A DNA stretch of 64,000 bases, from NCBI GenBank assembly GCA_025517465.1, contig JAOPKE010000006.1, positions 124,001-188,000 on the forward strand, in the 5' to 3' direction. This document shows positions 5,189-52,950 of this stretch, in pieces. The notes beneath the pieces were generated by a model. That model was not told the DNA's origin and did no database searches. It was given only the letters and a program-made list of their open reading frames with translations. The first letter of the stretch is position 1. Each line of letters begins with the position of its first letter. The stretch comes from Halobacteria archaeon HArc-gm2. Its GTDB lineage: Archaea > Halobacteriota > Halobacteria > Halobacteriales > Haloarculaceae. A program made the position numbers and the translations under genes.

Positions 5189-5335
5189 GACGGCCTGAGG
5201 GGGCTGCCCGTGAAAGGTGTTGTCTCCTCCCAGACGCTCCCCACTCTCCGCGAAGAAAGTTGCCTGTTAGTAAGGGTTGTTCAGCAAATACGGAACGGTA
5301 TTGAGAACCGGGCATGAACGACGGGCATCCCGAGC

Positions 5336-6067
5336 ATGGGAGAGAGCGCCAGCGTCGGGCTACTCTGTAAGCAGAACAAGTCGGTGTTCACGGCGGTCGC
5401 CGAGCGCCTGCAGTGTCTGGGCTACGGGGTCCAGTTCTTCCATCCCCAGTCCGGACTCTCACTGCGCCAGGCCGCCGACCTCTCGCTGATCGTGAACAAG
5501 AAGACCCTCCCAGTCGCGTTCCCGGCACTCTGGCACGCTCGACGGATGGGGACGCCGCTGTGGAACAATCTCCAGGCGACGATTCTGTTCAGCTCTCGGC
5601 TGATCGGTCTTCGAGCGGTCTCGAAGATGGGAATTCTCACGCCCGCAGTCACCCTCGAGAAACCCACGTGTGAGTACGTCGCGAAAGGCACCTACGTCTG
5701 GGACGACGACCCCGAACTCAACGGTGACGGGGATTTCTACCAGGAGTTGATCCCGACGGAGCCGGTCGATTACAAGTACTACGCTATCAACGACGGGAGC
5801 CAAACACACGTCGCGGGGAGACGCGTCACTTCGAAGCTATACGGGGAGAAACAGTTCCTCGGCGAGATACGGATCCGGCCAGCGCTGGCAGCGTCGCTCC
5901 GACGACTCGTCGAACGGTTCGACCTCCGGGGAATCGGCGTCGACCTGGTCAAAGACGACGATGGCCGGTACTGGGCCGTCGACGTCAATCTCGCAGCGGG
6001 ATACCGGGACACCGGGTTAGCGTCTGCCCTCACCGACTCGATCACGTCGTACCTTCCTGGTGAGTGA
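5336..6067 (+). CDS. ATP-grasp-like protein
   Basis: The 243-residue protein looks like the RimK/ATP-grasp fold. An N-terminal Rossmann-like part ends near LSLIVNKKTLPVAFPALW. A central region contains YQELIPTEPVDYKYYAIND, and the C-terminal GIGVDLVKDDDGRYWAVDVNLAAGYRDTG matches the acidic metal-binding strand of ATP-grasp enzymes (D, then D-V-N). It is short for the family and the glycine-rich loop is not obvious, so substrate and activity are open. ATG 5336 is the first sensible start. Confidence 0.55.
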   Translation: MGESASVGLLCKQNKSVFTAVAERLQCLGYGVQFFHPQSGLSLRQAADLSLIVNKKTLPVAFPALWHARRMGTPLWNNLQATILFSSRLIGLRAVSKMGILTPAVTLEKPTCEYVAKGTYVWDDDPELNGDGDFYQELIPTEPVDYKYYAINDGSQTHVAGRRVTSKLYGEKQFLGEIRIRPALAASLRRLVERFDLRGIGVDLVKDDDGRYWAVDVNLAAGYRDTGLASALTDSITSYLPGE

Positions 6068-6209
6068 ACCGACGGCTGGCGTCCCGCACTGTTTCTTGCG
6101 ATGGTTACGATCCGCGCGGGAAGAGCGGGCCGATAGCGAGCGTCCGCTTCGCGACGGTGAGGATCCGAAAAGTGGACGAGTAACCGGATGCCGCGTCAGG
6201 GTTCGCGTC

Positions 6210-6920
6210 TTAGCCTTCGAGATGCGCTTCAGCTGCGTCCTTGTCTTCGACAGAGTCGACGTTGGTTCGCCAGCCGTCGAGGCGGATCGCGTCGATCGTT
6301 TTTCCAGACCGAATGAGCAGGTCCATCGCGTCCGGTAGTTCGTACTCGCCGCGGTCCGATGGCTCGATGAGATGACAGGCGTGGAAGATATCGGGGGTGA
6401 ACGTGTAGAAGCCAGTCATGACGAGGTCCGATGCCGGTTCCGCTGGCTTCTCTGCAACCTCGACTACTTCGCCATTCTCGTTGGTGACGAGGACGCCGTA
6501 CCTCGAGGCCTCCTCCTCCGGGACTTTCTCGATGAGCAATCCCGCGTCCGTGCGGTCTTCGCCCTGGCGGTGGACGACGTCGCCGAGATTCGCCTGGAAT
6601 ACATCGTCTGCGAGCATGAGCACGAAGTCGTCCTCGATATGGGGTTCGGCCTGCAGCAGGGCGTCGGCGAGCCCGAGCTGTTCGTCCTGCTTGGCGTAGG
6701 TGATGGGCACGTCCTCGTAGGACTCACCGTAGCGTTCGATGATCTCTCCCTTCATCTCCCCCACGACGACGACGAACTCCGTCACGTCGAGGTCGACGAG
6801 ATCGTCGAAACAGTACTCGACGAGTGGTTTCCCGTCGACTTCGACGAGAGCTTTCGGTCTGTCTTCGGTCAGCTGCTCGAGGTCGGTTCCTCTGCTCGCA
6901 GCGAGGATTACTGCTTTCAT
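6210..6920 (-). CDS. Sugar-phosphate nucleotidyltransferase
   Basis: The 236-residue protein is a single NTP-transferase domain of the glucose-1-phosphate thymidylyl/uridylyltransferase type. It has MKAVILAA, LTEDRPKALVEVDGKPLVEY, an LADD metal-binding site near residue 103, and EKP near residue 154. It probably makes an NDP-sugar for glycosylation or cell-surface polysaccharide. The signature is altered: SRGTDLEQL replaces GEGTRLRPL, so the glycine and arginine that hold the nucleotide triphosphate are changed. There is no left-handed beta-helix C-terminal domain. A TATA element 26 nt upstream suggests a leaderless transcript. Confidence 0.8.
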   Translation of the reverse strand: MKAVILAASRGTDLEQLTEDRPKALVEVDGKPLVEYCFDDLVDLDVTEFVVVVGEMKGEIIERYGESYEDVPITYAKQDEQLGLADALLQAEPHIEDDFVLMLADDVFQANLGDVVHRQGEDRTDAGLLIEKVPEEEASRYGVLVTNENGEVVEVAEKPAEPASDLVMTGFYTFTPDIFHACHLIEPSDRGEYELPDAMDLLIRSGKTIDAIRLDGWRTNVDSVEDKDAAEAHLEG

Positions 6921-6940
6921 CGACTAGACAATCATCTTTT

Positions 6941-6951
6941 GATATAAATAC
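6941..6951 (-). promoter_or_regulatory. TATA element of the nucleotidyltransferase gene
   Basis: On the minus strand the sequence reads TATTTATATC, centred about 26 nt before ATG 6920, the usual place for a haloarchaeal TATA box serving a leaderless mRNA. Confidence 0.55.
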
Positions 6952-7058
6952 GTTTGGGCACCGGTATCTGGTTCTCGCCTCTGTGCAACGGATGGGAAGG
7001 CTTTGGCGTGAATACGATCGCGAACGAGTGTACGAGGGGGGAGGCTCGACGAAGTTCG

Positions 7059-8066
7059 TTACGACCCGCGCGGGATGAGCGGGTCGATAGCGAGCGTTCG
7101 CTTCGCGACGGTGAAGATGCGAAAGACGTACGAGATGAAGATCATGAACGGAACGAGCGTCGCCGTGAACCCGGCGCCGATGACGGGGATGATGTGTTCG
7201 ATTCCCATCGTCCGCCCCGGGAACGTGTTCCCGTCGAGGGTCACGAGCAGCGTGCCGCCGATGATCAGCGCTGGCACCGCCGTCGCGAGGATGAGCTGTG
7301 AGAGGACGATCAGCGACCACTGGAAGTACAGCGTCTTGATGTACTCGCGCGCCGGTCCGTACAGCATCAGCGCGTCTTTCAGTTCTTCGAGTAGTTCCAC
7401 CTGGTCGTTGGTGAGGTCGTCGCCGAAATCGTCGATGATGCGTTCGACCTGGAACACCTTCCAGCTGTAATCGAAGTCCAGGGCGGCGAACACGACTTTG
7501 AACGTCCCGAACTGGGCGCCGTCCAGTCGCGCTATCACGCCGTCCGCGTTCTTGTGGATCCCCTCGGTCAGGTCCCTGATGTCCGCGTTCAGGTCCTCGT
7601 TCCCCGTGTCGTCGATCTCACCGATCAGTTCGGCCCGGTCCGACGTCGCCTGGAGTATGTCGCTGAGGAATTTGGACGGTTTCGTGGAACAGGGTGCCCC
7701 GATCAGGTTCGACGCCTCCTCTCGAAACGCCATTGCACCGTCCAGCCGTTCGAACTGGTCGCCGAGCGGACCGTTCTCCTGGGTCAGGATGAGCTGGCCG
7801 AACGCGACGACGAGGGTCGCACCGGTCACGATGACGGTGATCATCGTCGAGAACAGTCGCTCGGACAGGTCGCCCTGCGTGTCCATCTGGTACAGCTCCG
7901 GACGGAGGACGAAGGTGCCGATCGTGAACGCGAAGAAGAACACTGCGGCCAGGAGCCCGGCAATGACCAGCCGGTTTCCGGACAACAGCAGCCAGGAGAC
8001 GAGGTGGCTCGTGTTGGCCCGCTTGCGGACCGTGTCGGAGGTGTTGACGACAGTCTCTGGGGACAT
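7059..8066 (-). CDS. Four-helix membrane protein, function unknown
   Basis: The 335-residue protein has predicted membrane helices at about 33-53, 70-94, 250-275 and 287-317. A hydrophilic loop of about 150 residues between the second and third contains CSTKPSKFL and several amphipathic stretches. I do not recognise a family with assigned function. The two-plus-two arrangement with a large loop resembles haloarchaeal proteins of unknown function, and I assign no activity. It is a single gene on the minus strand, between the nucleotidyltransferase and the beta-helix protein. Confidence 0.6.
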   Translation of the reverse strand: MSPETVVNTSDTVRKRANTSHLVSWLLLSGNRLVIAGLLAAVFFFAFTIGTFVLRPELYQMDTQGDLSERLFSTMITVIVTGATLVVAFGQLILTQENGPLGDQFERLDGAMAFREEASNLIGAPCSTKPSKFLSDILQATSDRAELIGEIDDTGNEDLNADIRDLTEGIHKNADGVIARLDGAQFGTFKVVFAALDFDYSWKVFQVERIIDDFGDDLTNDQVELLEELKDALMLYGPAREYIKTLYFQWSLIVLSQLILATAVPALIIGGTLLVTLDGNTFPGRTMGIEHIIPVIGAGFTATLVPFMIFISYVFRIFTVAKRTLAIDPLIPRGS

Positions 8067-8203
8067 CCTCGTTCACCCACCTGCACTGGCGCCTTGTATG
8101 TGTTCGTCTGAAAAATGAGGCGAATCGCTCGTTCGCGGAAACGACGGGATCGGGGACGGGGGTGCATCGCTCACGTCTGTCTCGTCCAGGACTGGACGTG
8201 CTG

Positions 8204-9361
8204 TCACAGCGGGCACGACCCGTTTCGCTCCGTCCGCTCACGGACGTCGAACTGGACGCTCACGGTCGCGTCGCCGCGGATCGAGAGCGCGTCGATACTC
8301 CCCGCGAACCAGTAGGCGTCACGCGCGTCGTCGACGACGCCGTGGACGGGCTGCCCGCGGACGACGTCCGCTCCGCTGATCGGCGCGTCGTGACGGATCG
8401 CTTCGCGTGACGCCGTGGCCTCGAAGGAGTAGGAACTCGGGTCGTCGGTCCCGCTGCCGTCGAACACGATGGCGTGGGGGAACCGATCGCCGTCGCTATT
8501 CGCCTCTCCAGCGGACTGGATCGAGACCCTCGACGCCGCTGCCTCCGCTGTCGTCGGCACGCCGTCGGGTATCGAGAGGTCGGGGTCGTCCGAGACGTCG
8601 GCGCCCACGTCGACGACCGAACCACAGGTGCGCTGGATGCTCCCCCGGTAGCCGCCGCTCTCGAAACTGACCCGGCCAGCGGCGTCGTTGGCGCCGGCGA
8701 CGAGAGCGTGTGGGTAGGGGCCGTCGGCGAAGTACGAGTCCCTGATCGTCACCGTGTCGCCGTTCCACACCCAGACGGGCCGGCCGTTGGTCTCGACGTA
8801 TGGGCCGTCGTCGTGCCCGTACTCTGTCTCGTCGGTGTAGGCGACGCAGTTCTCGACCAGGTCGTCGCCGCCCGCACAGCGAAACGTGGCGACGCCGTTG
8901 TTCTTGCCGAAACAGCTGTCGAAGTGGACGCTGCTGGGCCCCGTCGCGGTATGCGAGCAGTGAAAGCCGTTGTTCGGGAATCCCTGGACGTTGCAGCGCC
9001 GGAAGGTCACGTCCGCCTGGTTACTGCGATGCATGACGGCTGCACCGGGTCCGTGAACGGAACGCCCGCCGTCCCTGGTCGCGCCGTCACCCATGTAGAC
9101 GTTTTCGACGAGGACGTCTCCCGTGCCGGCGTCGATCGAGATCACGAACTCGTCGCCGTGGTAGAGGCCCGTGAACCCGACGTTCCGGATCACCGAGTTC
9201 GCGCCGGTGACGTGGAGCGAGACGCTCTCGCCGGTCGAGACGTCGATCAGCTTGTTCTCGAAGGTCTCGTCCCGATCGAGCGTAATTACCTGGCCGCTTG
9301 CACGTATCGTCTCGTAAAATGGGTCAATAGAATTACTATTCTGTGACGAGCTGGTTGCCAT
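8204..9361 (-). CDS. Right-handed beta-helix (pectate-lyase-fold) protein
   Basis: I start at ATG 9361 (385 residues): a TATA element sits at about 9383-9390, 22-29 nt upstream, which fits a leaderless start; the longer frame to 9424 would place translation upstream of that promoter. The centre has parallel beta-helix rungs such as NSVIRNVGFTG, GDVLVENVYMGDG, ADVTFRRCNVQGF, SSVHFDSCFGKNNG and DTVTIRDSYFADG. The fold is that of carbohydrate-active or adhesive proteins. No signal peptide is visible and no catalytic signature is clear, so the substrate is unknown. Confidence 0.65.
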   Translation of the reverse strand: MATSSSQNSNSIDPFYETIRASGQVITLDRDETFENKLIDVSTGESVSLHVTGANSVIRNVGFTGLYHGDEFVISIDAGTGDVLVENVYMGDGATRDGGRSVHGPGAAVMHRSNQADVTFRRCNVQGFPNNGFHCSHTATGPSSVHFDSCFGKNNGVATFRCAGGDDLVENCVAYTDETEYGHDDGPYVETNGRPVWVWNGDTVTIRDSYFADGPYPHALVAGANDAAGRVSFESGGYRGSIQRTCGSVVDVGADVSDDPDLSIPDGVPTTAEAAASRVSIQSAGEANSDGDRFPHAIVFDGSGTDDPSSYSFEATASREAIRHDAPISGADVVRGQPVHGVVDDARDAYWFAGSIDALSIRGDATVSVQFDVRERTERNGSCPL

Positions 9362-10229
9362 GTACCATTGATCACATCCGGCAATATAAGCCTTCACCCC
9401 AGGTCCAATAGAGGCAGATCTCAAGTATGAGCTGCTACCGGATGGGTGATACTGGTACTGCGCGCTGACGGCCAGTCGGAACTCGCGCCGCCGGATCGTA
9501 GTGTTAGTCGCGCAATTACTATCTAAATTTAACGAGAGGACCGTCGAACTGTGGGCGTGGGTCGCGAAGAACTAGTCGCTGTCTCCGCTAGACTGCCGAG
9601 ACAGAGCCAGTCCACACATACAGTTGGCAAGAGAATATAAGTATCGGCTAGCTGAATAGTAGTGGTACCACCGCGGCAACGCTATCGCTTCCCAGCGGAA
9701 AAATGGAGCGACAACCAGGGGGCCATCCCGGATGCCGTGGTGGAGCAACAGCGATGTCTGCGCTTGCACAGACGCGGCGTCGGATCAAAAACCCTCGGGT
9801 ACCATGCGGTATCGTCAGCCGGTCGTCGACGGGACCCGATCGACGCCCAGTGGTGCTCGAGACCCGCATCAGTGAGTCGGTGCGGACGAGCAATACGGCG
9901 TTGCCGGTGCACCTGAACGAGTTTTCGCCGTTCGTGGGAAGCGTCGCACGGCCCCCTTCGAGCAGCAACAGAACGTCGCTGCTCGCGCGAATCTGGCCGG
10001 TCAATACAGGTTTTCAGCGAACAATGACTATCACCGTATCGACGAACCACGACAGAACGAGCGTACCGTCCCCGAAACCGACCAGACCCCAGGACGACGG
10101 TCCAGTTTCCGACCGTCCCCGGGACGCCGTCGGACCCGCTGCAGTCATCCCTCGTCGAGAGAAGCGGCAGCTACCGGGGTTCGATCCTATCGGAGTACCG
10201 GGGATCGATTCTATCGGGGGTGTGGCGGG
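9362..10229. other. Intergenic stretch without a supported gene
   Basis: About 870 nt separate the divergent genes. Open frames exist on both strands but have high Arg/Ser composition and no motif. A near-duplicate of about 24 nt containing ACCGGGG-TCGAT and TATCGG occurs at about 10175 and 10198, just before the next gene. The AT-rich patches at 9500-9540 and 9630-9660 may hold promoters. Confidence 0.4.
9383..9390 (-). promoter_or_regulatory. TATA element of the beta-helix gene
   Basis: On the minus strand the sequence reads CTTATATT, about 25 nt before ATG 9361. It is the main reason for choosing the internal start. Confidence 0.45.
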
Positions 10230-10589
10230 ATGAACTGTTCCGGGACGGACAGCGACGACGACCCGTACCTCACGGTGGCGATGGCCGAACTCGACCGGTT
10301 CGGGACGCGAGTCGGCTGTCCGGTCTGTGAGAATCCCATCGCGGCGGCGGTCGGGACGCCGTCCGTTCCGTCACGGATCCTGCGCGACCGGGCGATTCGA
10401 GCGGCTGTCGGCGACGACGTCCCCGTGTACGGGTGGCGCTGTCGTCGGCACCGGTCCCACGACGTGCGAGCCCTCGCTCCCGCCGCCTTCGCCCCGGCGT
10501 CGTACGAGTCCACGGCTGCCGTCGTCGATGGAGAGGTGGTCGACGTCGCGATTCCCGGCCCCGTCTTTCAGCGAGGTGCATCGCAGTGA
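10230..10589 (+). CDS. Small zinc-ribbon-like protein
   Basis: The 119-residue protein has CPVC at about 31-34, then WRC and R-x-H-R-S-H at about 70-77, giving enough Cys/His ligands for one zinc site. The rest is unremarkable. Its stop overlaps the GTG of the next gene as GTGA, so the two are translationally coupled. I do not recognise a named family; a DNA- or protein-binding accessory role is inferred only from the zinc motif and coupling. Confidence 0.55.
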   Translation: MNCSGTDSDDDPYLTVAMAELDRFGTRVGCPVCENPIAAAVGTPSVPSRILRDRAIRAAVGDDVPVYGWRCRRHRSHDVRALAPAAFAPASYESTAAVVDGEVVDVAIPGPVFQRGASQ

Positions 10590-12385
10590 GTTCGACGCGA
10601 TCGGTCACCGGCGGACCGGGAATCGACGTCGGTTCGCTCGACCGGGAGCGCGAAGATGTCTCCGCGACCGGCGAACACGACACACTCGACTATCCCGACC
10701 CGATCAACCACGGCTTCGGGATGGAGTTGGTCCTCGAGGACCTGGCGACCGCTGGGCCCACTACCTACCGACGGCTCTACGAGGGCTGGCGCGACGTCGT
10801 CGCGGATCCGGCGAACGAGCCGCACGTGCTCGTCACGGACGTCCACTCACAGTTCGACTGGCTGGACGACGACTATCCCGCCCATCTCGTGCTCGGCTCG
10901 TCGAAGTGGAAAGCCGGACGGGACGCCGTCGACGGCGAGCTCGTCGGCCAGCGCTACGAGTACACCGTCCAGGTCATGCGCTACGACGAGGAGACCGGGA
11001 CGCTGGCCGCGGAGGTGGACGGTAGCCTTCGGGCCCCGGTCAGTTACCAGGCCTGGGTACAACCACAGGACGAATCCCTCGTGTTGCCCTCCGGTGATAC
11101 CCTGGTCTGCTACTACGGCGAAGGCACGAAGATACGGCCACAGACGACCTACGCCAGTCCGAGGGAGTCCATTTCCCGGACTGCGGAGGTCATGAACGCC
11201 GTCCTGGACGCGCTCGACGCGGCCCGACCGGAGTGGGAGACGCTCAATCGCGAGAGCCTCCGCGTCTGGAAGAGCGAGGTATACCACCGGATCCCGGAGG
11301 AGTACATGAGCGTCCTCGCACAGCGCCTCCGTGACGCGCGCACGCTCATCGAATTCGGCGGCGGTTCCGACGTCGCCGGCGACGGCACGTTCCGGCGGGG
11401 ACAGCACGTCCGAGAGAAGGTCGTCAGCGACATGTTCGACCGTCTCGGCTTTCTGGGATTCGCCGCGCGTGAGGGGTACAACCTCGGGCTCAAGGTGTAC
11501 CGGATCGGTGGGAATCCCGCCGACGAGCGACTCAAACACCCCAAGCTCGAGGCGTTCTTCGCCGGGACTGGGCGCGACACGAAGCTGCCCCACATCGACC
11601 AGTGGTGTGCGCTCCAGGCGACACTCCGCCAGTTAGCCAGCGCCTTCGCCATTCGCTGCGGCGTCAGCTGGACCGACCTCGTCGAAGACGACTACTACGA
11701 CCCCGACGAGCGTGAGATGGTCGACGTGGTCGTACCGAAGGGGTGGCGCCAGGCTATGCGTGAGGTCAACCAGGAACGGATGCGGCGTATCCTGAAGATC
11801 ACCTACGAGAGCCTCAGCAAGGCGCGCTGGGACGTCCTCTGGGTCGTCTCCTCGTTCGAGGGCGCGACGTACGAACAACTGCAGGACGCCACCGGCTACT
11901 CGTACGACTACGTCCGCGAGATCTGCAAGGAACTCGAAGAACTGAACGTGCTCCACCGGACGACCTGGCCGCGGGTCGTGGTCTTCCACAACGAGGAGCT
12001 ACGCCTCAACGCGCGCGAGGTGCTCCAGGACGTCCATCCGGACCGGGGATTCGACGACATCCGGGCGGACGCCGAGCAGCGCCGTGAGCGCCGGCTCGAG
12101 CGCCGGCAGGAATCCGCGTCCAGCGGGTCGGAGTCTGGCGCGACTCCCAGTGGGTCCGAAAGCGAACAGCCGTCGACGGCGGACGGTCGGCCCAGCGCCA
12201 GTCGATCCGACGGCAGTCAGTCTGCCTGTCGCCAGTCCGACGGCGAGGTCTGGCGCCCCTTCAGCGACTTGCGACTGACCAGCGAGCAGTTCGCGAGAGC
12301 GCTCGCCCGTGAACGCATCGCCCACGAGCACGTCCAGATCAGGACGGATCCGTACGACCGTCTCGTCGAGCCACCACCCGACTAG
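10586..12385 (+). CDS. Large winged-helix protein of haloarchaeal elements
   Basis: The start is GTG 10586, overlapping the previous stop (599 residues). The N-terminal half is not recognisable. About residues 400-430 contain WTDLVEDDYYDPDEREMVDVVVPKGWR. About 440-510 form a winged helix (WVVSSFEGATYEQLQDATGYSYDYVREICKELEELNVLHRT). The C-terminal tail is Ser/Arg-rich and of low complexity. It resembles large replication- or element-associated proteins often found beside orc genes in haloarchaea (possibly the DUF7845 group), from memory only. It converges on an Orc1/Cdc6 gene, which supports a replicon-related role but does not prove it. Confidence 0.6.
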   Translation: MSSTRSVTGGPGIDVGSLDREREDVSATGEHDTLDYPDPINHGFGMELVLEDLATAGPTTYRRLYEGWRDVVADPANEPHVLVTDVHSQFDWLDDDYPAHLVLGSSKWKAGRDAVDGELVGQRYEYTVQVMRYDEETGTLAAEVDGSLRAPVSYQAWVQPQDESLVLPSGDTLVCYYGEGTKIRPQTTYASPRESISRTAEVMNAVLDALDAARPEWETLNRESLRVWKSEVYHRIPEEYMSVLAQRLRDARTLIEFGGGSDVAGDGTFRRGQHVREKVVSDMFDRLGFLGFAAREGYNLGLKVYRIGGNPADERLKHPKLEAFFAGTGRDTKLPHIDQWCALQATLRQLASAFAIRCGVSWTDLVEDDYYDPDEREMVDVVVPKGWRQAMREVNQERMRRILKITYESLSKARWDVLWVVSSFEGATYEQLQDATGYSYDYVREICKELEELNVLHRTTWPRVVVFHNEELRLNAREVLQDVHPDRGFDDIRADAEQRRERRLERRQESASSGSESGATPSGSESEQPSTADGRPSASRSDGSQSACRQSDGEVWRPFSDLRLTSEQFARALARERIAHEHVQIRTDPYDRLVEPPPD

Positions 12386-12787
12386 TGCGACGCCCCACCG
12401 GGATTGCCCCGTCTCGAGCCGCAGCACTCGTCGCCGGAGTGGTTCCCCGCCGTTCGCATCGCGGATTAATCGACAAAATTATTATCTGTTTTCGATCCGC
12501 CTGTTCATGACGGAATTCTAATACTGCTACCGGAACGGTGACTCACAGTTGCCGTCGATCGTGCCTGTCTCGATGCACCCGACAGTACTCGGCTGTGTCG
12601 TCCTGGACCACGCGACCCGGAATTGCGCTTCTCGTTCGGGGGACGCTATCCCCAGGCCCCACTACGGTAGTTGCCCGTAGACCGATGGGGAGACTCGTCG
12701 ACGCCCGTCGGTGGGAGATATCGCTTCTGGTGCACCCGGAAATACCGGTTCGGAACGTTCACAGACGGCGATCGGATGTCCGAGTCG
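12386..12787. other. Convergent intergenic region
   Basis: About 400 nt lie between the 3' ends of the winged-helix gene and the Orc1/Cdc6 gene. An AT-rich patch at 12466-12525 may terminate transcription of the plus-strand gene. I see no gene. Confidence 0.4.
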
Positions 12788-14215
12788 TCAGGTTGCGCGC
12801 CGGACCTGGGCCTCGACGACCCTGCGGACGTCGTCGTCGTCGATCGCAGCGAGACGCGAGTCCTCACGAAGCGTCTCGAGAATCGTCCCGGGAGCCTCTT
12901 CGAACCCGAACTCGAGGAACAGTCCCGAACTCGGTCCGCAGCTCTGCCGTCTGTAATCCACGAGCGAATACGTCGTCATCTCCTTCATCTTGTTGACGTA
13001 GGTCTCCCGGTGGTATCGCTCGGCATCGATCGCGTCGGTGAGGAACCTGTACACACGATACCCAGCCGTACTGCGGGCCGACTGGTCGTCCGTTTCGGCA
13101 GCGACGGCCGCAGTCGCGTAGAGACAGAGCTTCTTCTGCGTACTGATGCCGCGAACGACTTCGAGCACGCGGTTCTTCTCGACGCTGTCCCGCGCCTGGC
13201 GAACGTGTCCCTCACGGACGGCCTGTTCGTCGTTCCGTTCTGCGAGTTCGCCAGCGATCCGCAGCAGGTCGATTGCTGTGCGTGCATCACCGTTCGCCTG
13301 GGCTGCAACGGCCGCGGCCAGCGGAACGACGTCCTCGTCGAGGACGTCCGCGTAGAAGGCGTCTCGGCGGTGGCGAAGGATCGACCGGAGCTGGGTCGCG
13401 TCGTAGTCGTCAAAGTGGACGTCTTCGGGCGTGAAGGTGCTCAGGGCCCGAGTTCCCACGTCGTCCAGCACCTTCGCGTCGTTGGAAATCGCGACGACGG
13501 AGACGTGTGCATCGAGGTCGTTCATCGCACCGGCACGGGAGAGCTGGTAGAGTAACCGGGAGAACGCCGGCGTTTGCCTGTCCCGTCGACCGACGAGCAT
13601 GTCGAGTTCGTCGAGGACGAACGCCACGGCGTCGAAGTGCCGGCCGACGATCCGATACAGTTCCTCCCACTTCTCCTTCGTCGCGACACCCTGTCTCGGA
13701 ACCTCGGCGTCGACGAGCGCTTCGTCCGCGGCACGACGTGCGAGTTCGGAGACGGCGACGCCGAGGGTATCCAGATCCTGGCAGTTGACCTCGATCGTTC
13801 CGAATCGAATATCACGCGTCTCACAGGCCCTGCCGAGGTTCTTGCAGACGGCACTGGCGACGAGTGATTTACCGGTCCCCGACGGCCCGTACAGGAAGAG
13901 GTTCGGCGGCGGGTTGTCCCCGAGGGTGACTCTGAGCATCTCTGTCACTGCCTGGAGCTGCTCGTCACGACCCACGATCCGGTCCTCCTCGACGACGTGA
14001 TTCGGGTCGAGCAGCGACCGGTCACGGATGACTCCTCCCCGGTGGTCGAACTCCAGTAGCAGATCCGTGATCGACTGTGATTCGCCCTCCGTTGCGGATC
14101 TGGCCGCCGATGACGGGTTCTCGGCGACAGCAGAACCGGTCGCTGGTGGTCCCTGCTCCCTCGTTTCGTCCTTCGATGTCCCGACATCGTCTCGGGGAGC
14201 CTCACCGTTTTCCAT
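12788..14215 (-). CDS. Orc1/Cdc6 replication initiator
   Basis: The 475-residue AAA+ protein has an N-terminal low-complexity extension (about 1-47), then Walker A GPSGTGKS (110-117), Walker B FVLDELD (199-205), sensor-1 VAISND (about 240), an RALSTF region and a C-terminal winged helix (about 370-470). Archaeal Orc1/Cdc6 proteins bind origin recognition boxes and load MCM. The roughly 950 nt upstream are noncoding and contain one G-string box (14543-14562) that recurs three times in the origin at 50 kb. This could be a second origin or an element-borne initiator. Confidence 0.9.
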   Translation of the reverse strand: MENGEAPRDDVGTSKDETREQGPPATGSAVAENPSSAARSATEGESQSITDLLLEFDHRGGVIRDRSLLDPNHVVEEDRIVGRDEQLQAVTEMLRVTLGDNPPPNLFLYGPSGTGKSLVASAVCKNLGRACETRDIRFGTIEVNCQDLDTLGVAVSELARRAADEALVDAEVPRQGVATKEKWEELYRIVGRHFDAVAFVLDELDMLVGRRDRQTPAFSRLLYQLSRAGAMNDLDAHVSVVAISNDAKVLDDVGTRALSTFTPEDVHFDDYDATQLRSILRHRRDAFYADVLDEDVVPLAAAVAAQANGDARTAIDLLRIAGELAERNDEQAVREGHVRQARDSVEKNRVLEVVRGISTQKKLCLYATAAVAAETDDQSARSTAGYRVYRFLTDAIDAERYHRETYVNKMKEMTTYSLVDYRRQSCGPSSGLFLEFGFEEAPGTILETLREDSRLAAIDDDDVRRVVEAQVRRAT

Positions 14216-15172
14216 ACCGCGTTACAGGCGGTCTGCCAACAAAACATTATTCCGCCAAACACGTCTTACATTTCGGTAATATATAGGTTAATTCGCACCG
14301 AACGTAACTGGTCGAAACGCGGTCCGGCCAACGGGGATGCCGAAACTCCGACCGCGTGACGTTCGACGGTTTTCCACGACCGGTGTCCTCGAGCCGGCAC
14401 CGGACGAGTCGCCGGGTTGCCGGGCAGGTTGGCCCGGTTCGGTACGGAACAGTCGCCAGAACGATGGCGGCGAGGGATCGCCTGTCGATCGCTCCGATAC
14501 AGTAGACGGCCTTGTACCGACAGACGGAGCGCACTACTGTACACATCGATAGAGGGGTGTCTGTGTGGTAACTCTCCCTGCAATTCGGCCGAGGGACGCG
14601 GCTCCACTCGCCGATTACCGCAGCCGATTTCAACTACCCGATCGACGTGCGTGTAATGGTTAAAAAGAATATATATTCTCCGTCCAATACGAATACTGGG
14701 GTGTAGACTGACGGTCCGAACGGTGTCGTGTCTAGTACACGCTCGGAGGCCAGCGTTTGCAACGTTGTTTGGGGACGTATCGCGCCGTTTATAGGGACTC
14801 GCGGGCTGGAGTCGCGTTTCGCAGATCTTCCCAGGCGGTTGCTAATCTGTGGTGCCAATAGCCGATTGAAACCTCTCGATCGTCTACAGCGACCTGATTC
14901 GCGCGTTGACGCTCGCCGTCGGGAGACTCCACTCCAGTCTCTCTGGTCGCTTCGCTCTTCAAAAGCACCTGGTCGATATTATATCATTAATATATACTGT
15001 ATATGAAACTGTCTATTCTGGAGGGCGGATCAAATCCGGGTATCATCGATCTCGGGGTGACTGGTAGGTTCCACGCCACAGACGTGGACGACATCGATGA
15101 TCTGTCACAGTTGGCAATCGTAACCGGGTTTCCAGTAGTAACTCCTAACGTACCCAGGGTCGATCGACTGAT
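14216..15172. other. Intergenic region upstream of orc, candidate second origin
   Basis: About 950 nt hold no supported gene. The interval includes the G-string box at 14543-14562, an AT-rich patch with the palindrome GAATATATATTC near 14668-14679, and another AT-rich patch at 14976-15002. This layout fits a DNA-unwinding element plus recognition box, but only one clear box is present, so origin function is speculative. Confidence 0.4.
14543..14562 (+). repeat. G-string box, ORB-like (copy near the first orc)
   Basis: The sequence is ACATCGATAGAGGGGTGTCT. Three related copies lie at 50304, 50345 and 50450. The GAGGGGTG core is shared, in reverse, with the origin repeats CACCCCTC- around the second orc gene. 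Confidence 0.6.
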
Positions 15173-15664: not shown

Positions 15665-16813
15665 CTACGCGGCACAGTTGTTCGGGCCCAGTTCGAGTTC
15701 TGTCGCCTCGCTCTCGTCGTCGACGGTGTCTCTACCGGTGTTGACGGCGATGACCGTCTCGTAGTTCGGGGGCTTCTCCGGGGCGTCTCCGGCCAATCGT
15801 TCGACGAACGCTTCGCGGTCCAGCCCGAGGAAGTCGAGTTCGTCGCGGAGGTCCCCGAGCCGGGCCTCGAGGGGGTCACCCGGCGACCCGTTCTCGTAGC
15901 GCCCGTCGCTCGTGACGGTGAGGTGGCCCGGCAGGATGGTCGTCTCGTCTGGGAGGTCGAGGATCGTCTCGTGGAGCGAGTCGTACAGCAGTTCCGCGCC
16001 GCGCGAGGCGTCGTCCTCGCCGAACTGGAGTTCCGTCCGGCCGACGGAGTCGACGAACAGCGTATCGCCCGTCAACAGGAGTTCCCCGTCGACGAGGTAG
16101 TTCGTCATCTCCGAAGTGTGGCCAGGCGTGTGGAGCGCCTCGATCTCGACGTCGCCGACCTCGACGACGTCGACGTCCCCGAGCGGTTCGTATTCGTACT
16201 CGACACCGCGTTCGCTGGCTGCCTCGCCGAGGTGGTAGGGCACGCCGACCTCGTCGGCGAGTGCCGGACTGCCGGAGATGTGGTCGGCGTGGACGTGCGT
16301 ATCCAGCACGCGTGTGATGGAGAGCCCGGCGTCCTGGGCAGCGACTTTGAACTGGTCGGTCTGTCTGGTCGCGTCGACTACGGCTGCCTCTTCGGCGGCT
16401 TTCGAGCCGACGACGTAGCCGAGACAGCCCTTCGCCCGGCGCTGGACCTGCCGAACGACGAGGTCGTCGCTCGCCGTCTCGATGGGGACGACCTCATAGC
16501 GCTTGCTCCACGCCTCCATCCCGCCAGTGACGACCGAGACGTCGTCGTAGCCGTGTTCCTCGAGGTCGAACGCGAACGGCGTCGACGTCAGCCCCTTCCC
16601 GCAGATGGCGACGACCGGTCCGCCGTCGACCAGTGCGTCCACCTCGTTCAGTTGGTCCTCGCTCAATCCCTCGTCAGGGTCGTATGGAACGTTCGCCGCG
16701 TCGCGCACGTGCCAGGCCTCGAAGCTGTCCTCGGGACGCACGTCGATGAGCGTGAACTGTTCGCCGGCGTCGATCTCGTCCGCGAGTTGTTCCGCAGTGA
16801 TGTTTGTGACCAT
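15665..16813 (-). CDS. Rhodanese-MBL fusion (persulfide dioxygenase-like)
   Basis: The 382-residue protein has an N-terminal rhodanese domain with catalytic Cys71 in CGKGLTS. A metallo-beta-lactamase domain of the ETHE1/glyoxalase-II type follows, with HVHADH at 173-178 plus later TPGHT, GDTLF and LPGH ligands. ETHE1-type enzymes oxidise glutathione or other low-molecular-weight persulfides to sulfite, and rhodaneses move sulfane sulfur. The C-terminus ends ELGPNNCAA, repeated in the paralogue at 43.9 kb. It lies downstream of the SoxB-like gene on the same strand, separated by 131 nt that hold a tandem repeat, so co-transcription is likely. Confidence 0.88.
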   Translation of the reverse strand: MVTNITAEQLADEIDAGEQFTLIDVRPEDSFEAWHVRDAANVPYDPDEGLSEDQLNEVDALVDGGPVVAICGKGLTSTPFAFDLEEHGYDDVSVVTGGMEAWSKRYEVVPIETASDDLVVRQVQRRAKGCLGYVVGSKAAEEAAVVDATRQTDQFKVAAQDAGLSITRVLDTHVHADHISGSPALADEVGVPYHLGEAASERGVEYEYEPLGDVDVVEVGDVEIEALHTPGHTSEMTNYLVDGELLLTGDTLFVDSVGRTELQFGEDDASRGAELLYDSLHETILDLPDETTILPGHLTVTSDGRYENGSPGDPLEARLGDLRDELDFLGLDREAFVERLAGDAPEKPPNYETVIAVNTGRDTVDDESEATELELGPNNCAA

Positions 16814-47354: not shown

Positions 47355-47383
47355 CGTGACTGGTCTCGCGCTCGTTTGCTCGC

Positions 47384-48187
47384 CTAGTCCACTGGATGGA
47401 CTGTGTCGCCGTCTCGACGGACACGTTCGAGCGATTCCAGATACGCGATCCGGTCCTGAACTTCGTCGGTAGCTAGTTCCAGTTCGGCGGTCAGTTCGTC
47501 GACAGTCATCGGTTCGTCGAGGGCCTGGAGAACTTCTAGTCCACGGTAGTATCGCTTCGTCAGTTCTTGGACGCGGGCCTCGATCGGCGTGGTCACCCCA
47601 TACCGCTCCTCGAGTTCGATCAGGGCCTCGTTCGCGAACGTAGCGAACCTGTCGTCGCCGAGCCGGTCGATCTGAACTTCGAGTTCATCTCGGACGATGT
47701 CGTAATCGACGCTAGCCTGCACGAGCACGTTCATGTCCTCGATATCGTCGTCGCGTCCCGCGATCATTTTGAACAGAAAGATATCCTCGTTGCTGACCAG
47801 TTTGACCGTCAACCGATCGGTGTCGAGGAACGTCTCACTCCGGGTGCCCATCCCGTCTGTGAGGACGAGCTTGTTCGCGACCTGCTGGTTGAAGATGTCG
47901 AGGCGGCATCTATCGTCGTTTTCGACGCAACTGGTCGCCCCCAGCGCCCGATAATCGGCGTCCAGTGACTGTACTTCCGCATATCCGAGACCCATCAGGA
48001 CTGCCCACAGCTGGCCGTACGCGTCGCCGTCGGCGACGACGAGGTCGATATCCTTGGTCGCCCCCTTGAGGTCACGCAGCGACATCGCGCCACCACCGAT
48101 CAGGTACACCGTGAGCGGTTCAGACAACTCATCCGCGATACGCTGAAACTCGTTTTTGATATACTCCCTTCCGAATGTTGGCCTCAT
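47384..48187 (-). CDS. Nucleotidyltransferase-fold toxin-like protein with winged helix
   Basis: The 267-residue protein has the nucleotidyltransferase motif YLIGGGAMSLRDLKGATKDIDLVV (GG-x7-DxD), as in DUF6036/AbiEii- or MenT-type proteins, followed by KLVSNEDIFLFKMIAGRDDDIEDM. A C-terminal winged helix spans about 215-265. Its start overlaps the stop of the upstream regulator (4 nt). Pairing with a DNA-binding partner and a palindromic operator suggests a toxin-antitoxin module. Its substrate (tRNA or protein) is not known. Confidence 0.75.
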   Translation of the reverse strand: MRPTFGREYIKNEFQRIADELSEPLTVYLIGGGAMSLRDLKGATKDIDLVVADGDAYGQLWAVLMGLGYAEVQSLDADYRALGATSCVENDDRCRLDIFNQQVANKLVLTDGMGTRSETFLDTDRLTVKLVSNEDIFLFKMIAGRDDDIEDMNVLVQASVDYDIVRDELEVQIDRLGDDRFATFANEALIELEERYGVTTPIEARVQELTKRYYRGLEVLQALDEPMTVDELTAELELATDEVQDRIAYLESLERVRRDGDTVHPVD

Positions 48188-49110
48188 GGTGGTAGTGGCA
48201 CCTCGTACTCAGCCGCCAGTTCCCGGAACTCCTCCCATTCAGGGAGGCGTTCGTCCCCGGCCTCGCCCTGCGTTCCGAGGTAGCGGAGCAAAGCGTCGAT
48301 CTCGTCTTCGAGGTTGTACTTCGCCGCTTGCTCCCGGAGGTCCCCTTCGTGGACGTCGACGTGACTGAGCAGCAGCAGACAGTACGAGCGGTGCCGGGTG
48401 TCGTCGTCGATCAGTAACGTGTGACAGCAGAGCTCCGCCGGCGAGATTTCCGCTACGTCCTCGGAGTAGAGGTAGTAGCGGTGACGGGTCAGCAGGAACT
48501 GGAGGTCGAATGCCGCGAACCGAGCGAGGCCGGTTTCGTGGAACCCCTTCGAACCGATCTCAGCCTCAGTCTGGGCGAGAAATTCGTCGTGGTCCTCCCA
48601 GAGAATCGTACCCTTCGCGGCAACGGATTCGAGCCGCTGGCGATGAAGATGGTGTGCGAGTTCACGAGCGAACTCGTGGAGGCGGTCGAAGTCGCCGTTG
48701 AACTGGTAGTGACTGTCAATCGTCCCGACGAGGCCGCGGTCGCGGAGCTGTTTGAGGACTCGGTTGACGGTATTGCGGTAGTTGTCGCTCCGGGTAGCAA
48801 GGTCGGCGACGGTTCGCGGCTGGTCGAGATGATAGAGGACTTCGAGCGTTTTGGCCGTCAATAGCTCCGGGAAGTCGATGTGGGAGTGTTGCCGAACGAG
48901 GTCCTGGTAGAGTTCGACCGCCTGGGCGTCCGACGGGACGACCCGCTTTCGGCGACCGTCGCGTTCCGTGTAGACGAGCCCTTTCTCGAGGAGGTTTCCG
49001 ACGGCCCGAGAGAGATAGCTCTCGCTGTGGTCGAGCTTCGTCGCGAGCTCGGAGATCGTGTCGCCGCGTTCGACGCTGCCGAGGACTTCAAGTTCGATGC
49101 GTCGGAGCAC
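48184..49110 (-). CDS. MarR-like regulator paired with the nucleotidyltransferase gene
   Basis: The 308-residue protein has an N-terminal winged helix (ISELATKLDHSESYLSRAVGNLLEKGLVYTERDGRRKRVVPS) and a second one (about 90-140, ADLATRSDNYRNTVNRVLKQLRDRGLVG). An all-alpha C-terminal part of about 150 residues follows, with CCHTLLIDDDTRHRSYCLLLLSHVD. It is the probable antitoxin or repressor. A TATA element and an inverted TGTAACAT pair lie upstream. Confidence 0.75.
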   Translation of the reverse strand: MLRRIELEVLGSVERGDTISELATKLDHSESYLSRAVGNLLEKGLVYTERDGRRKRVVPSDAQAVELYQDLVRQHSHIDFPELLTAKTLEVLYHLDQPRTVADLATRSDNYRNTVNRVLKQLRDRGLVGTIDSHYQFNGDFDRLHEFARELAHHLHRQRLESVAAKGTILWEDHDEFLAQTEAEIGSKGFHETGLARFAAFDLQFLLTRHRYYLYSEDVAEISPAELCCHTLLIDDDTRHRSYCLLLLSHVDVHEGDLREQAAKYNLEDEIDALLRYLGTQGEAGDERLPEWEEFRELAAEYEVPLPP

Positions 49111-49112
49111 GA

Positions 49113-49162
49113 TGTAACATATTACGAAGCTAGTATATAAATAAGTTTCCTACTATGTTACA
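49113..49162. promoter_or_regulatory. Promoter with flanking inverted repeat TGTAACAT...ATGTTACA
   Basis: TGTAACAT at 49113-49120 and its reverse complement at 49155-49162 flank a TATA element (49134-49143) placed 24 to 33 nt before ATG 49110. This is a typical repressor operator. Confidence 0.6.
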
Positions 49163-49209
49163 GAGGATGAGCTCAGAGAGTCGACGAACCCGATTATCAC
49201 GCTATTTTC

Positions 49210-49638
49210 TCAGTCCCAGAACGACTGGATTCGCGCATCTAACTTCGACAGTACATGCGAAATCACCGCTCGCCAATCATCAGCAAACGTCGCATCCTCA
49301 CCCGGCGTCGCCGCATCTGGCGGCGGATGCAGATGCTCCCGGTCGTTGTGACTGTTCGGATGCCTGTCCCACCGACACTCCCACGACTCGCCATCGCGGT
49401 ACTGCTCGGAATAGTGCACGTTGAAATCGTCTGTCTCGAACCAGCGAATACGAAGAGACGCACGCTCTACACCTGCTGGAAAATATCCCGTATCGAACTC
49501 TGCAACGATGGCGTTTGGCGCGTACGGAGGCCGGTACTCGACGGTCGAGAACCGGGCGCTCCCGCGCAAGCGGCGACCGATCCGCTCTAACACGTCACTA
49601 TCGATACCACCGACACCACCTGTCGTATCCTCAGGCAT
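49210..49638 (-). CDS. Hypothetical partner of the winged-helix gene
   Basis: The start at ATG 49638 (142 residues) overlaps the stop of the upstream regulator by 8 nt. The protein has VLERIGRRLRGSARFSTVEYRPPYAPNAIVAEFDTGYFPAGVERASLRIRWFETDDFNVHYSEQYRDG and a C-terminal His-rich region. I know no activity. Tight coupling with a winged-helix protein suggests a toxin-antitoxin-like or regulator-effector pair. Confidence 0.65.
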   Translation of the reverse strand: MPEDTTGGVGGIDSDVLERIGRRLRGSARFSTVEYRPPYAPNAIVAEFDTGYFPAGVERASLRIRWFETDDFNVHYSEQYRDGESWECRWDRHPNSHNDREHLHPPPDAATPGEDATFADDWRAVISHVLSKLDARIQSFWD

Positions 49639-50197
49639 TGACTCTCCCAGCGCGCCCACCCGACAGATCGTCACGACGTGCCGCATCTAGCAACGCCGCA
49701 CGCTCCTCGACCGTCTTCCAGTCAGAGATCGCTTCCCAGACGTCCTCGACAGCGGCTTCGCGACCTGCATCGACCAGCGACACTTCGCCAGGAGATTCCG
49801 CATCGAAGCGTTCCCGGTACGCGTCAGCCGTGTCGAGCGTATCCTTGAGTCGCTCGACGATTTCGGTCTCCGAATACCGCTCGCGGATCCGCTCGACTCT
49901 GCGCCACCGAAGATACGAATCGTTCCGCTCGTACCGCACGGGCCGACCCGATATCTCACGAACCATCCCCATCTCCCTGAACCAGCCGAGATAATCACGC
50001 GCGGTCTCCGTGTCACAGTCCGCACGCTCGGCTATCTCTGACACCTTCGTCGGCTCCCGCAACTGCATCACGATGTCGAGCAACCGCTCTCTCGTCGGCC
50101 CCCCCTTCAGCAGTTCCTCCGGCGACTCCCACGTGTCGAAGTCGGGTGGCTCCTCGTCCTCACCGGGCATCCTGTCGGACGTATCGGTCGTATCCAT
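49631..50197 (-). CDS. Winged-helix regulator (DUF7342-like)
   Basis: The start is ATG 50197, MDTTDTSDRMPGEDEEPPDFDTWESPEELLKGGPTRERLLDIVMQLREPTKVSEIAERADCDTETARDYLGWFREMGMV (188 residues). From memory this conserved pattern matches the haloarchaeal DUF7342 winged helices found near mobile elements. The C-terminal part is helical. It heads a two-gene operon adjacent to the origin. Confidence 0.75.
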   Translation of the reverse strand: MDTTDTSDRMPGEDEEPPDFDTWESPEELLKGGPTRERLLDIVMQLREPTKVSEIAERADCDTETARDYLGWFREMGMVREISGRPVRYERNDSYLRWRRVERIRERYSETEIVERLKDTLDTADAYRERFDAESPGEVSLVDAGREAAVEDVWEAISDWKTVEERAALLDAARRDDLSGGRAGRVNA

Positions 50198-50303
50198 ACT
50201 CCCACTAACGGCGCCCTCTGTAATATATCTGGTGCGCACAGAATTATTTCAGGACGTCGCCTCTTTGGCTCCCGCGGTTGTGCGGAGGGGTGATATTTCG
50301 AAT

Positions 50304-50323
50304 ACATCGATAACGGTGTGTTC
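50304..50323 (+). repeat. G-string box, degenerate copy
   Basis: ACATCGATAACGGTGTGTTC; matches the ACATCGATAGAGGGGTGTCT box at most positions. Confidence 0.5.
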
Positions 50324-50344
50324 CTGCAGACGGGCCCGCGAAAC

Positions 50345-50364
50345 GCATCGATAGAGGCGTGTCT
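50345..50364 (+). repeat. G-string box, second copy
   Basis: GCATCGATAGAGGCGTGTCT; two mismatches to the copy at 14543. Confidence 0.65.
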
Positions 50365-50449
50365 GTCTTCCCAGGGCCACGTCGATCGGCTTTCCCCTTG
50401 TTTTGGATCCACCTCACAATTTCCTCATCTTAGACCAGTTCGCTGGAAC

Positions 50450-50469
50450 ACTTCGATAGAGGGGTGTCT
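50450..50469 (+). repeat. G-string box, third copy
   Basis: ACTTCGATAGAGGGGTGTCT; one mismatch to the copy at 14543. Confidence 0.65.
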
Positions 50470-50658
50470 CTGGATCCCTTCCGGGACAGGTATACGCCTG
50501 TTTTCCCCGCTGCCACCATCGAAGCGTAACCAACGCACTACGAGGGCTCTACTTGTGTTGGCGGAGTTACTAGCATTGTTGGGATGGGGATCCGATGACA
50601 TCGAAGGTAGAGTGACCCACCTGAAGGAATGACTTGACCCGAGATCGGGAAACACCCG

Positions 50659-50675
50659 CCCCACGTTTCCGTCGT
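50659..50675 (+). repeat. CCCCACGTTTCCGTCGT box, copy 1
   Basis: Exact 17-nt match to 50742-50758. It has a C-string followed by TTTCC, as in haloarchaeal origin boxes. Confidence 0.6.
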
Positions 50676-50741
50676 ATCAGAGAACGGTGGCGAGGGGTAG
50701 AGGCGAACAGCCGGAACCACGATCTCCCTGTTCCCCACACC

Positions 50742-50758
50742 CCCCACGTTTCCGTCGT
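50742..50758 (+). repeat. CCCCACGTTTCCGTCGT box, copy 2
   Basis: Exact match to copy 1, preceded by more C and followed by TTTCTCC. Confidence 0.6.
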
Positions 50759-50941
50759 TTCTCCACGATAGCGGATTGGAATGGCACGAGAATCAGGCTG
50801 GGGATAGACTGTATCATGTCCATTTTGAAGTAAGAAATTTCCGTTTGATATTATTACATACACACGTTGGATATGGTGAATTGATAATTATCAACATAGA
50901 CAACTTCGCGAAGTGAGATATTCGTAGCGTAGCGGGAGACA

Positions 50942-50961
50942 CACCCCAGAGTGTGAATGGG
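50942..50961 (+). repeat. Origin box (ORB), copy 1
   Basis: CACCCCAGAGTGTGAATGGG. Confidence 0.75.
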
Positions 50962-50975
50962 ATATGTTTCCCCGA

Positions 50976-50995
50976 CACCCCTCAGTGTGAATGGG
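50976..50995 (+). repeat. Origin box (ORB), copy 2
   Basis: CACCCCTCAGTGTGAATGGG. Confidence 0.75.
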
Positions 50996-51077
50996 CAACC
51001 AACCGGCACTCGCTGACTAGATTTCACATCGATATGAGATGTAGCAACTTAGGGAGAAACTCTGCTTCGATATCCCT

Positions 51078-51097
51078 CACCCCTCAGTGTGAATGGG
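51078..51097 (+). repeat. Origin box (ORB), copy 3
   Basis: Identical to copy 2. Confidence 0.75.
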
Positions 51098-51414
51098 CCA
51101 TCAACTGCTGACCTCGATTAAGAAGTCCTTTACATTGGAGCTCCTCACAAAGCTGGAGGGTTCTCGCCATAGTAACAAACTATTGGCTCGGCACACGACC
51201 CCCAGACATCTTAGGATTTGCCCACTTGGATAGTTGTTTCCACCCGATTATAATAAAATTAACTAAACTATTGTCGCGGTGATAGGCCGGCTAACTCTCA
51301 TGATTGGACTCACAAGCCACTCCCCGTGCCGTAATAGCTTCGTTCAGACGAACTAATCAGCTTCTACGGCTCAAGTCCAGCCCCGTCTTTACAGCGGTCG
51401 TAGCCTATTCCAGA

Positions 51415-51433
51415 CCATTCACACTGAGGGGTG
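51415..51433 (-). repeat. Origin box (ORB), copy 4, inverted
   Basis: On the minus strand CACCCCTCAGTGTGAATGG. It sits 5 nt from the orc stop codon. Confidence 0.7.
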
Positions 51434-51437
51434 GGTG

Positions 51438-52706
51438 TCACCACCCCATCAATGTCTGGAGTTCCGGCGTTGAGTTGAGCAGTCCGGTTCGTGTACTTTC
51501 TACGTCTCCCTGGAGCGAATACGACCTGAACTTCCCCTGATCTCCCCCTTCCTTCTTTTTCGATTCGAGAACTCCGGTCGTCACGTGCTTGTTCAGAAGT
51601 TCGAGCGCACGATTATACCCCTTCGGCTCCACTTCGACATCCCGTGCTACCGTTTGATACACCTCGTGAATCTCTGACGTTCGGAACCATTCTTTCTCCG
51701 AATTATTCCGGTCGAGACGTGTGAGAGCAAACAGGAGTAATTTCCCGGACAACGGAGTCCCTTTCACCATCTCCATGAAGAGCTCGACTTCGACGAGTTC
51801 GTCGGCCTCGAATACGTGCTTTGCTGTCACGGTCTCGTCTCCTTCCTCGTCAGCGACCTCGCCTGCATTCCGGAACAATCTGACTGCACGCCGTGCGTCA
51901 CCGTGTTCTTCAGCTGCGAGTTCAGCTGTTGTTGGAATCACGTCGTCATCGAGGACGCCATCGTAAAATGCGTCCCGTCGATTTTCGAGGATTTTGATGA
52001 GCTGACCCTCTTGGTACGGCCTGAACGTTCGATGTTCCGGCTGGAGAGTCGACTGAACCCGTGACTCGATTTCTCCTTTGAATTCGATGTCGTTCGAAAT
52101 TCCGATCGTAACGACTGGGAACTCGACGTCGTCCTTTGAGTGTGTCCGTGACAATGTGTAGAGCACTTCGTTGACTTCTCCATGCTTGTCGATTTCATCG
52201 ATAATGACGACGAGACCGCCAGAGAACTCTCTTTGGACAACAGGCCACAATTTTTGATCCCGATAATGTTCGGCTGAGAGGCCCTGATAGGGGACATCAA
52301 GTGGGTTTTCTGCTTTAGCATTCACCTGCTCTGCAATCTTTCGGAAGGTGGAGGTATACGTGGAGATGGGGTCCGGATTAATGTACGTCGTAACGATCGG
52401 CGACTTCGTTCCTTCAGTTGCCGCTTCGAGTCGCTCACAGACGTGTCTTGCAACTAACGTCTTCCCCGTGCCGGTTTCACCCCACTCCAGGACGTTATCT
52501 GGGACGCTATTTGTCCGCATCTTCCGGAGGTTCTTGGCCAAGAACGTGATGTGATCGTCTCGACCGACGATTCGATTGGCGTCAGGAACGTTATCGATCT
52601 CGAGCAACCACGGTTTCTCAAAGATGTTCGATTCGGGTTCGCTATCTTCCCCATCGACATTTAAGATCTCATCGACGCTTGCTTGCGTAGCATCGTCTTT
52701 TGTCAT
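51438..52706 (-). CDS. Orc1/Cdc6 replication initiator (origin-linked)
   Basis: I choose ATG 52706 (422 residues) over ATG 52727: a TATA-like CCTATATG (52731-52738) is centred 29 nt upstream of 52706 but only 8 nt from 52727. Walker A is GETGTGKT (76-83), Walker B LVVIIDEIDK (165-174), and sensor VTIGISND (about 205). A C-terminal winged helix includes the region RALELLNKHVTTGVLESKKKEGGDQGKF. The protein is shorter than the other Orc in this window. The coding region is flanked on both sides by matching origin boxes, which it probably recognises. Confidence 0.9.
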   Translation of the reverse strand: MTKDDATQASVDEILNVDGEDSEPESNIFEKPWLLEIDNVPDANRIVGRDDHITFLAKNLRKMRTNSVPDNVLEWGETGTGKTLVARHVCERLEAATEGTKSPIVTTYINPDPISTYTSTFRKIAEQVNAKAENPLDVPYQGLSAEHYRDQKLWPVVQREFSGGLVVIIDEIDKHGEVNEVLYTLSRTHSKDDVEFPVVTIGISNDIEFKGEIESRVQSTLQPEHRTFRPYQEGQLIKILENRRDAFYDGVLDDDVIPTTAELAAEEHGDARRAVRLFRNAGEVADEEGDETVTAKHVFEADELVEVELFMEMVKGTPLSGKLLLFALTRLDRNNSEKEWFRTSEIHEVYQTVARDVEVEPKGYNRALELLNKHVTTGVLESKKKEGGDQGKFRSYSLQGDVESTRTGLLNSTPELQTLMGW

Positions 52707-52730
52707 AGACGAGTCAATTAAGGCCATTCA

Positions 52731-52738
52731 CATATAGG
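52731..52738 (-). promoter_or_regulatory. TATA element of the origin-linked orc gene
   Basis: On the minus strand CCTATATG, centred 29 nt before ATG 52706. Confidence 0.45.
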
Positions 52739-52767
52739 TTGGGTCACTTCGGTGTGATTGGATTTCC

Positions 52768-52786
52768 CCCATTCACACTCTGGGGG
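52768..52786 (-). repeat. Origin box (ORB), copy 5, inverted
   Basis: On the minus strand CCCCCAGAGTGTGAATGGG, upstream of the orc gene. Confidence 0.7.
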
Positions 52787-52803
52787 TCTTGCTGCGTGAA
52801 ACA

Positions 52804-52823
52804 CTCTCCAGAGTGTGAATGGG
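52804..52823 (+). repeat. Origin box (ORB), copy 6
   Basis: CTCTCCAGAGTGTGAATGGG, divergent at its 5' end. A more degenerate GGTGTGATTGG is at 52751. Confidence 0.6.
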
Positions 52824-52950
52824 ATCGATACCACCCCCAGAAACAAGAGCGAGACAGACCCGGACACGTCAACGACACCGTCGGCGAACGCCGTCGAGAC
52901 GAGGGGAAGAGATCCGACAGCGTTTCGCTCCGCGATACCTCCCGGCGAGG

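Follow-up and report, generated by a model that had tools for sequence, protein, structure and literature searches.

Three classes of ORBs around one orc gene of a haloarchaeal megaplasmid: a probable mosaic of an intact origin and relics of two others

Replication origins that adjoin orc/cdc6 genes and carry G-string ORBs have been described in haloarchaea, including the predicted origin of Haloarcula marismortui pNG600, and the occurrence of ORBs on both sides of the orc gene has been described as well (Wu et al. 2012, PMC3528665). Moreover, two different ORB-like elements beside a single orc gene were depicted in the same work for Hla_3512 and Hwa_HQ2959A (Fig. 3 of PMC3528665). The locus studied here lies in a window of 64,000 nt (i.e., the whole stretch of DNA that was analyzed, from contig JAOPKE010000006.1 of Halobacteria archaeon HArc-gm2; all coordinates refer to this window unless stated otherwise) and resembles these origins in that inverted G-string ORBs adjoin an orc gene, as is characteristic of haloarchaeal orc/cdc6-associated origins. 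Like Hla_3512 and Hwa_HQ2959A it is a composite of ORB types at one orc gene, but whereas the origins in the part of Wu et al. available to us have at most two ORB types per orc (a situation known since 2012), three ORB families occur together here. Also unlike those two loci, as presented in that part of the paper, each class could here be assigned to a separate Orc family, and a recombination scar was seen in related plasmids. We consider the locus to be, probably, an intact OrcA/class-1 megaplasmid origin combined with relics of two other origins into a mosaic.

The central features of this origin, on which the comparison rests, are as follows:

50942..50961, + strand: class-1 ORB (outer); position and orientation conserved
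50976..50995, + strand: class-1 ORB (outer, 34 nt from the 50942 box); position and orientation conserved
51078..51097, + strand: class-1 ORB at the left border of the putative origin core; pattern match and conservation
51098..51413, no strand: putative origin core, enclosed by inverted class-1 ORBs; AT content and conservation
51414..51433, − strand: class-1 ORB at the right border of the putative origin core; pattern match and conservation
51438..52727, − strand: orcA, initiator gene of the orc1/cdc6 family (429 aa, TIGR02928)
52768..52787, − strand: class-1 ORB upstream of orcA; pattern match and conservation
52804..52823, + strand: class-1 ORB upstream of orcA, in inverted orientation relative to the 52768 box; pattern match and conservation

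The orcA ORF is intact and specifies a complete Orc1/Cdc6 protein with AAA+ and winged-helix domains (Cdc6_lid, Cdc6_C, and AAA all scored above cut-off in a domain search). In plasmid relatives the annotated start is at the position of 52706, i.e., 7 codons further downstream. Near the start of orcA itself lies a partial class-1 half site (52721-52732). Plasmid Orcs from many genera are ca. 92% identical to OrcA and a few are 82% identical, while other Orcs remain below 60%. Correspondingly, the OrcA stretch was 90–95% identical in 25 PLSDB records (some with a partial gene only) and 80–90% identical in three, with all other records below 60%, and a search for relatives found none in phages. 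Since OrcA is the sole Orc match on several complete plasmids (NZ_CP099995, NZ_CP008875, NZ_CP031149, and NZ_CP101164), OrcA and class 1 probably suffice for a replicon. In the mosaic reading, classes 2 and 3 would be dispensable. A PolB-orcA-h108-MarR-DUF6036 backbone is common but not universal among OrcA relatives, and is incomplete in the window, where MarR and DUF6036 are present and PolB and h108 are absent. As at this locus, pNG600 (NC_006394) combines an OrcA homologue with class-1 boxes, whereas on Halobacterium pNRC200 class-1 boxes accompany a truncated OrcA homologue (L044:6010-6513) instead of the full-length one found here. Fragments of polB lie just upstream of this truncated homologue. 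By eye, published orc3 knockout primers (PMC1906834) match the 3′ end of the OrcA family.

The six class-1 boxes that the initial annotation had reported around the orc gene were all recovered with the pattern CACCCCWSAGTGTGAATGGG, with 0, 0, 0, 1, 2, and 2 mismatches in order of position, against a mean of 0.02 in shuffled windows. In pattern searches of the 4.25-Mb genome, from which all genome-wide box counts were taken, these six remained the only class-1 matches with up to 3 mismatches. The inverted box at the orc stop was recovered at 51414-51433 and ends 4 nt before the stop codon. In most OrcA relatives the six boxes occupy the same positions in the same orientations; in three relatives (ca. 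82% identity) a tandem array replaces the upstream boxes, others possess one more box upstream, and the OrcA locus of pNRC200 has downstream class-1 boxes only. The box blocks are 94–100% conserved versus about 60–95% for the spacers. These comparisons identify class 1 as the ORB recognized by the adjacent OrcA family, and as the sole class that belongs there. With a looser pattern, class 1 was found in 70 of 391 haloarchaeal genomes (with three matches for the control). Having an Orc more than 80% identical to those of the OrcA/class-1 plasmid origin family, and class-1 boxes in the conserved layout, the locus can be placed in this family, and the proposal of a plasmid-type replication origin with ORBs beside orc is well supported by comparison.

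Throughout the OrcA relatives examined, the inverted class-1 pair just downstream of orc is retained. Its two boxes (51078, + strand, and 51414, − strand) point their cores inward and their G-strings outward, as is also the case in OrcB and Orc4 origins, and the enclosed 51098-51413 region is AT-rich (52% versus 35% for the window), with an AT-rich block at 51244-51273 that is 83–95% conserved. Together, the retained pair, the inward cores, and the conserved block argue for a likely origin core downstream of orcA, at 51098-51413. No clear origin signal was seen in the GC skew of the contig. In oriC2/oriC2D of Haloarcula hispanica, too, the sequence downstream of the initiator is rich in ORBs (PMC3936714); however, that downstream cluster is regulatory and lacks origin activity, while the downstream region here is probably the origin core itself and includes foreign ORBs. 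We propose that OrcA would bind its six class-1 ORBs and that the AT-rich spacer between the inverted pair would be the site of DNA opening and MCM loading. The upstream pair, which has the opposite polarity and is situated in the orcA promoter region, probably serves autoregulation of orcA, and the outer pair (50942 and 50976) may add binding or titration sites.

Next to these class-1 boxes, the window contains boxes of two further classes, together with neighboring genes and a second orc gene:

12788..14215, − strand: orcB, cognate initiator of the class-2 boxes; comparison with class-2 loci
14543..14562, + strand: class-2 ORB at orcB; perfect copy
49210..49686, − strand: TumE-like protein, putative toxin; below the Pfam cut-off
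49631..50239, − strand: DUF7342 HTH protein, putative antitoxin; domain search
50304..50323, + strand: weak class-2 (OrcB-type) ORB; 5 mismatches in 18
50345..50364, + strand: class-2 (OrcB-type) ORB; pattern match
50450..50469, + strand: class-2 (OrcB-type) ORB; pattern match
50659..50675, + strand: class-3 (Orc4-type) ORB; exact match
50742..50758, + strand: class-3 (Orc4-type) ORB; exact match

Both class-3 boxes are exact, and no further copies were found genome-wide with up to 2 mismatches. Elsewhere, the usual neighbor of class-3 loci is Orc4 (a family with 99% identity to Orc4 of pNRC200), and the remaining ones adjoin families that we named OrcM (L119), OrcN (L115), OrcD (L118), and OrcP (L126). 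Of the 391 haloarchaeal genomes searched, 88 contain class-3 boxes and none matched the reversed control pattern, and by its neighborhood class 3 is the ORB of Orc4, the class-3 Orc of Halobacterium pNRC200. The genome studied here encodes six Orcs, which include OrcB (the class-2 cognate) but not Orc4, so that the class-3 pair lacks an adjoining orc4. Two further box types, ACTAACTCGGAATC-GGTGTG and ACCCCGTGTGCGAAATGAAA, accompany OrcC and OrcD of the same genome (L107:3531-6822).

As for class 2, two of the three boxes initially annotated are good copies (50345 and 50450), while the third (50304) is weak. Elsewhere in the genome, the pattern search revealed the perfect site at orcB and one site with 1 mismatch. 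Wherever one of the class-2 sites examined has an Orc nearby, that Orc is orthologous to OrcB (62–80% identical), which identifies class 2 as the ORB type of this family. Class-2 boxes were found in 77 of 391 haloarchaeal genomes (0 matches for the reversed control pattern). The boxes at 50304-50469 are not next to orcB, however, which sits 36 kb away. OrcB could still bind the class-2 boxes in trans, and, as judged from the present data, use of several initiators is conceivable for this class only. The orcB gene resides within a segment of ca. 20.6 kb (contig 118459-139118; window 1-15118) that is missing from the sister megaplasmid described below, and a putative metallo-beta-lactamase/rhodanese-like ORF (15665-16813) is located near orcB. 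The suggestion that toxin-antitoxin-like genes adjoin the origin is plausible, given the DUF7342 HTH gene with its TumE-like partner, the latter below threshold, and a MarR-like gene with a DUF6036 nucleotidyltransferase gene.

A same-genus sister megaplasmid (L127; 260 kb, with overlapping ends) is colinear with much of the contig and lacks two segments of the window:

47366..49207, no strand: segment with MarR-like and DUF6036 genes, missing in the sister; alignment with the sister
50557..52860, no strand: segment comprising orcA plus the boxes of classes 1 and 3, missing in the sister; alignment with the sister

The flanks of the missing segments are 93–96% identical to the sister, which retains Usp, one perfect class-2 box, and DUF7342/TumE, and whose genome encodes five Orcs, none of them OrcA or OrcB. 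Both segments show 83–84% identity to OrcA plasmids (ca. 84% at the DNA level to the plasmid backbone for 47366-49207), and because they preserve the plasmid backbone order, loss of both from the sister is no less likely or parsimonious than gain of both here.

Other plasmids bear the traces of such exchanges. Among the matches listed and compared by hand, class 1 and class 3 lie within about 100 nt of each other in at least 16 other genomes, and in the composites examined the truncated end of an h108 gene is fused to a class-1 box. The composite spacer consists of Orc4-plasmid sequence running past the h108 gene end (45 of 46 nt; L114 vs. L130), after which the composites switch to the class-1 box, followed by a complete h108. 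The same scar junction was found beside four unrelated Orc families, i.e., Orc4, OrcM, OrcN, and OrcD, and across 60 h108-anchored loci the slot holds OrcA, Orc4, OrcB, OrcM, OrcN, OrcD, OrcP, or no Orc in reach. With seven Orc families in one backbone slot, cassette exchange is, as read from these alignments, general among haloarchaeal plasmids. The h108 gene itself (L171-L230; ca. 108 aa, without a Pfam match) is shared by 240 of 322 haloarchaeal genomes, with a maximum of 8 copies per genome, and in the sampled loci mostly adjoins swappable orc cassettes. The shared scar junction was not found at the present locus, where the junction differs, and neither the spacer between class 3 and class 1 (50770-50918) nor the outer flank had a good match among relatives, the sister's flank excepted; the history of this junction is therefore one that we infer. 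An origin of the Orc4 type would have contributed the class-3 pair, and one of the OrcB type the class-2 array. Haloarchaeal plasmids would repeatedly swap orc-plus-ORB cassettes, the junctions of which retain foreign ORBs, and the three ORB classes would be neighbors here because of this repeated exchange.

The initial annotation had taken the three box families to suggest binding by more than one initiator. The three classes do match three Orc families, yet class 1 is the only one that goes with the neighboring Orc, and a true multi-initiator origin, with OrcA acting on class 1, OrcB in trans on class 2, and a third factor on class 3, appears improbable. Such an origin would be in line with OrcB being encoded on the same contig (with one intact box at its own locus and two here) and with the conservation of orphan ORBs in other plasmids, but the Orc4 required for class 3 is missing from the genome, the sister genome retains class-2 boxes while lacking OrcB, origin specificity of initiators has been reported for Haloarcula hispanica (PMC3936714), and the three-class arrangement with OrcA was found in no OrcA relative examined. 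That the class-2 boxes are not ORBs but operators of the adjacent DUF7342/TumE-like operon seems very improbable as well: although their position is immediately upstream of DUF7342 both here and in the sister, elsewhere class 2 adjoins OrcB genes, and the box is absent (up to 2 mismatches) from 12 of 13 related DUF7342/TumE loci elsewhere, the other having a single match with 2 mismatches, on which account the operator reading was rejected. The chance that the boxes are fortuitous repeats, or the locus dead, is close to negligible, as the genome-wide and shuffle controls rule out random occurrence (classes 1 and 3 being found nowhere else in the genome) and orcA is intact and conserved. A mosaic of exchanged cassettes is favored because the sister lacks the segment with OrcA, class 1, and class 3, and because other plasmids carry the scars.

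Whether the foreign ORBs of such a mosaic are mere relics was assessed from orphan class-1 boxes, i.e., those at scar loci in genomes without OrcA. In 10 such loci, which had been preselected for class-1 boxes (no more than 2 mismatches allowed) and are related rather than independent, only 1 of 34 box columns varied versus 75 of 128 in the spacers (Fisher p = 6e-10), and all 8 scar loci of the h108-anchored sample hold at least one perfect class-1 box. Intact boxes in the absence of OrcA argue against simple decay of relics, and since they are near perfect while the spacers diverge, some foreign ORBs may be functional, although this conservation is a hint rather than proof. The orphan boxes might even be kept by selection to bind the initiators of competing or co-resident plasmids, or to tune initiation, thereby acting as decoys, titration or incompatibility elements, or a hijack route. 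This would fit with the negative control of oriC2 by its downstream ORB cluster, probably via titration (PMC3936714). Nevertheless, recent plasmid spread could mimic constraint in these related loci, the first sample was selected on class-1 boxes, and one copy (L080) seems, by eye, to have decayed, so that selective retention is a tentative and rather unlikely reading.

The mosaic reading ties ORB classes to Orc families across haloarchaea, and portrays a fixed slot of the plasmids at which origin cassettes are exchanged, leaving a recombination scar that can still be read. If orphan ORBs do act as decoys or a hijack route, origin architecture would moreover record plasmid competition. The locus provides a concrete test of whether foreign initiators can serve or disturb archaeal origins.
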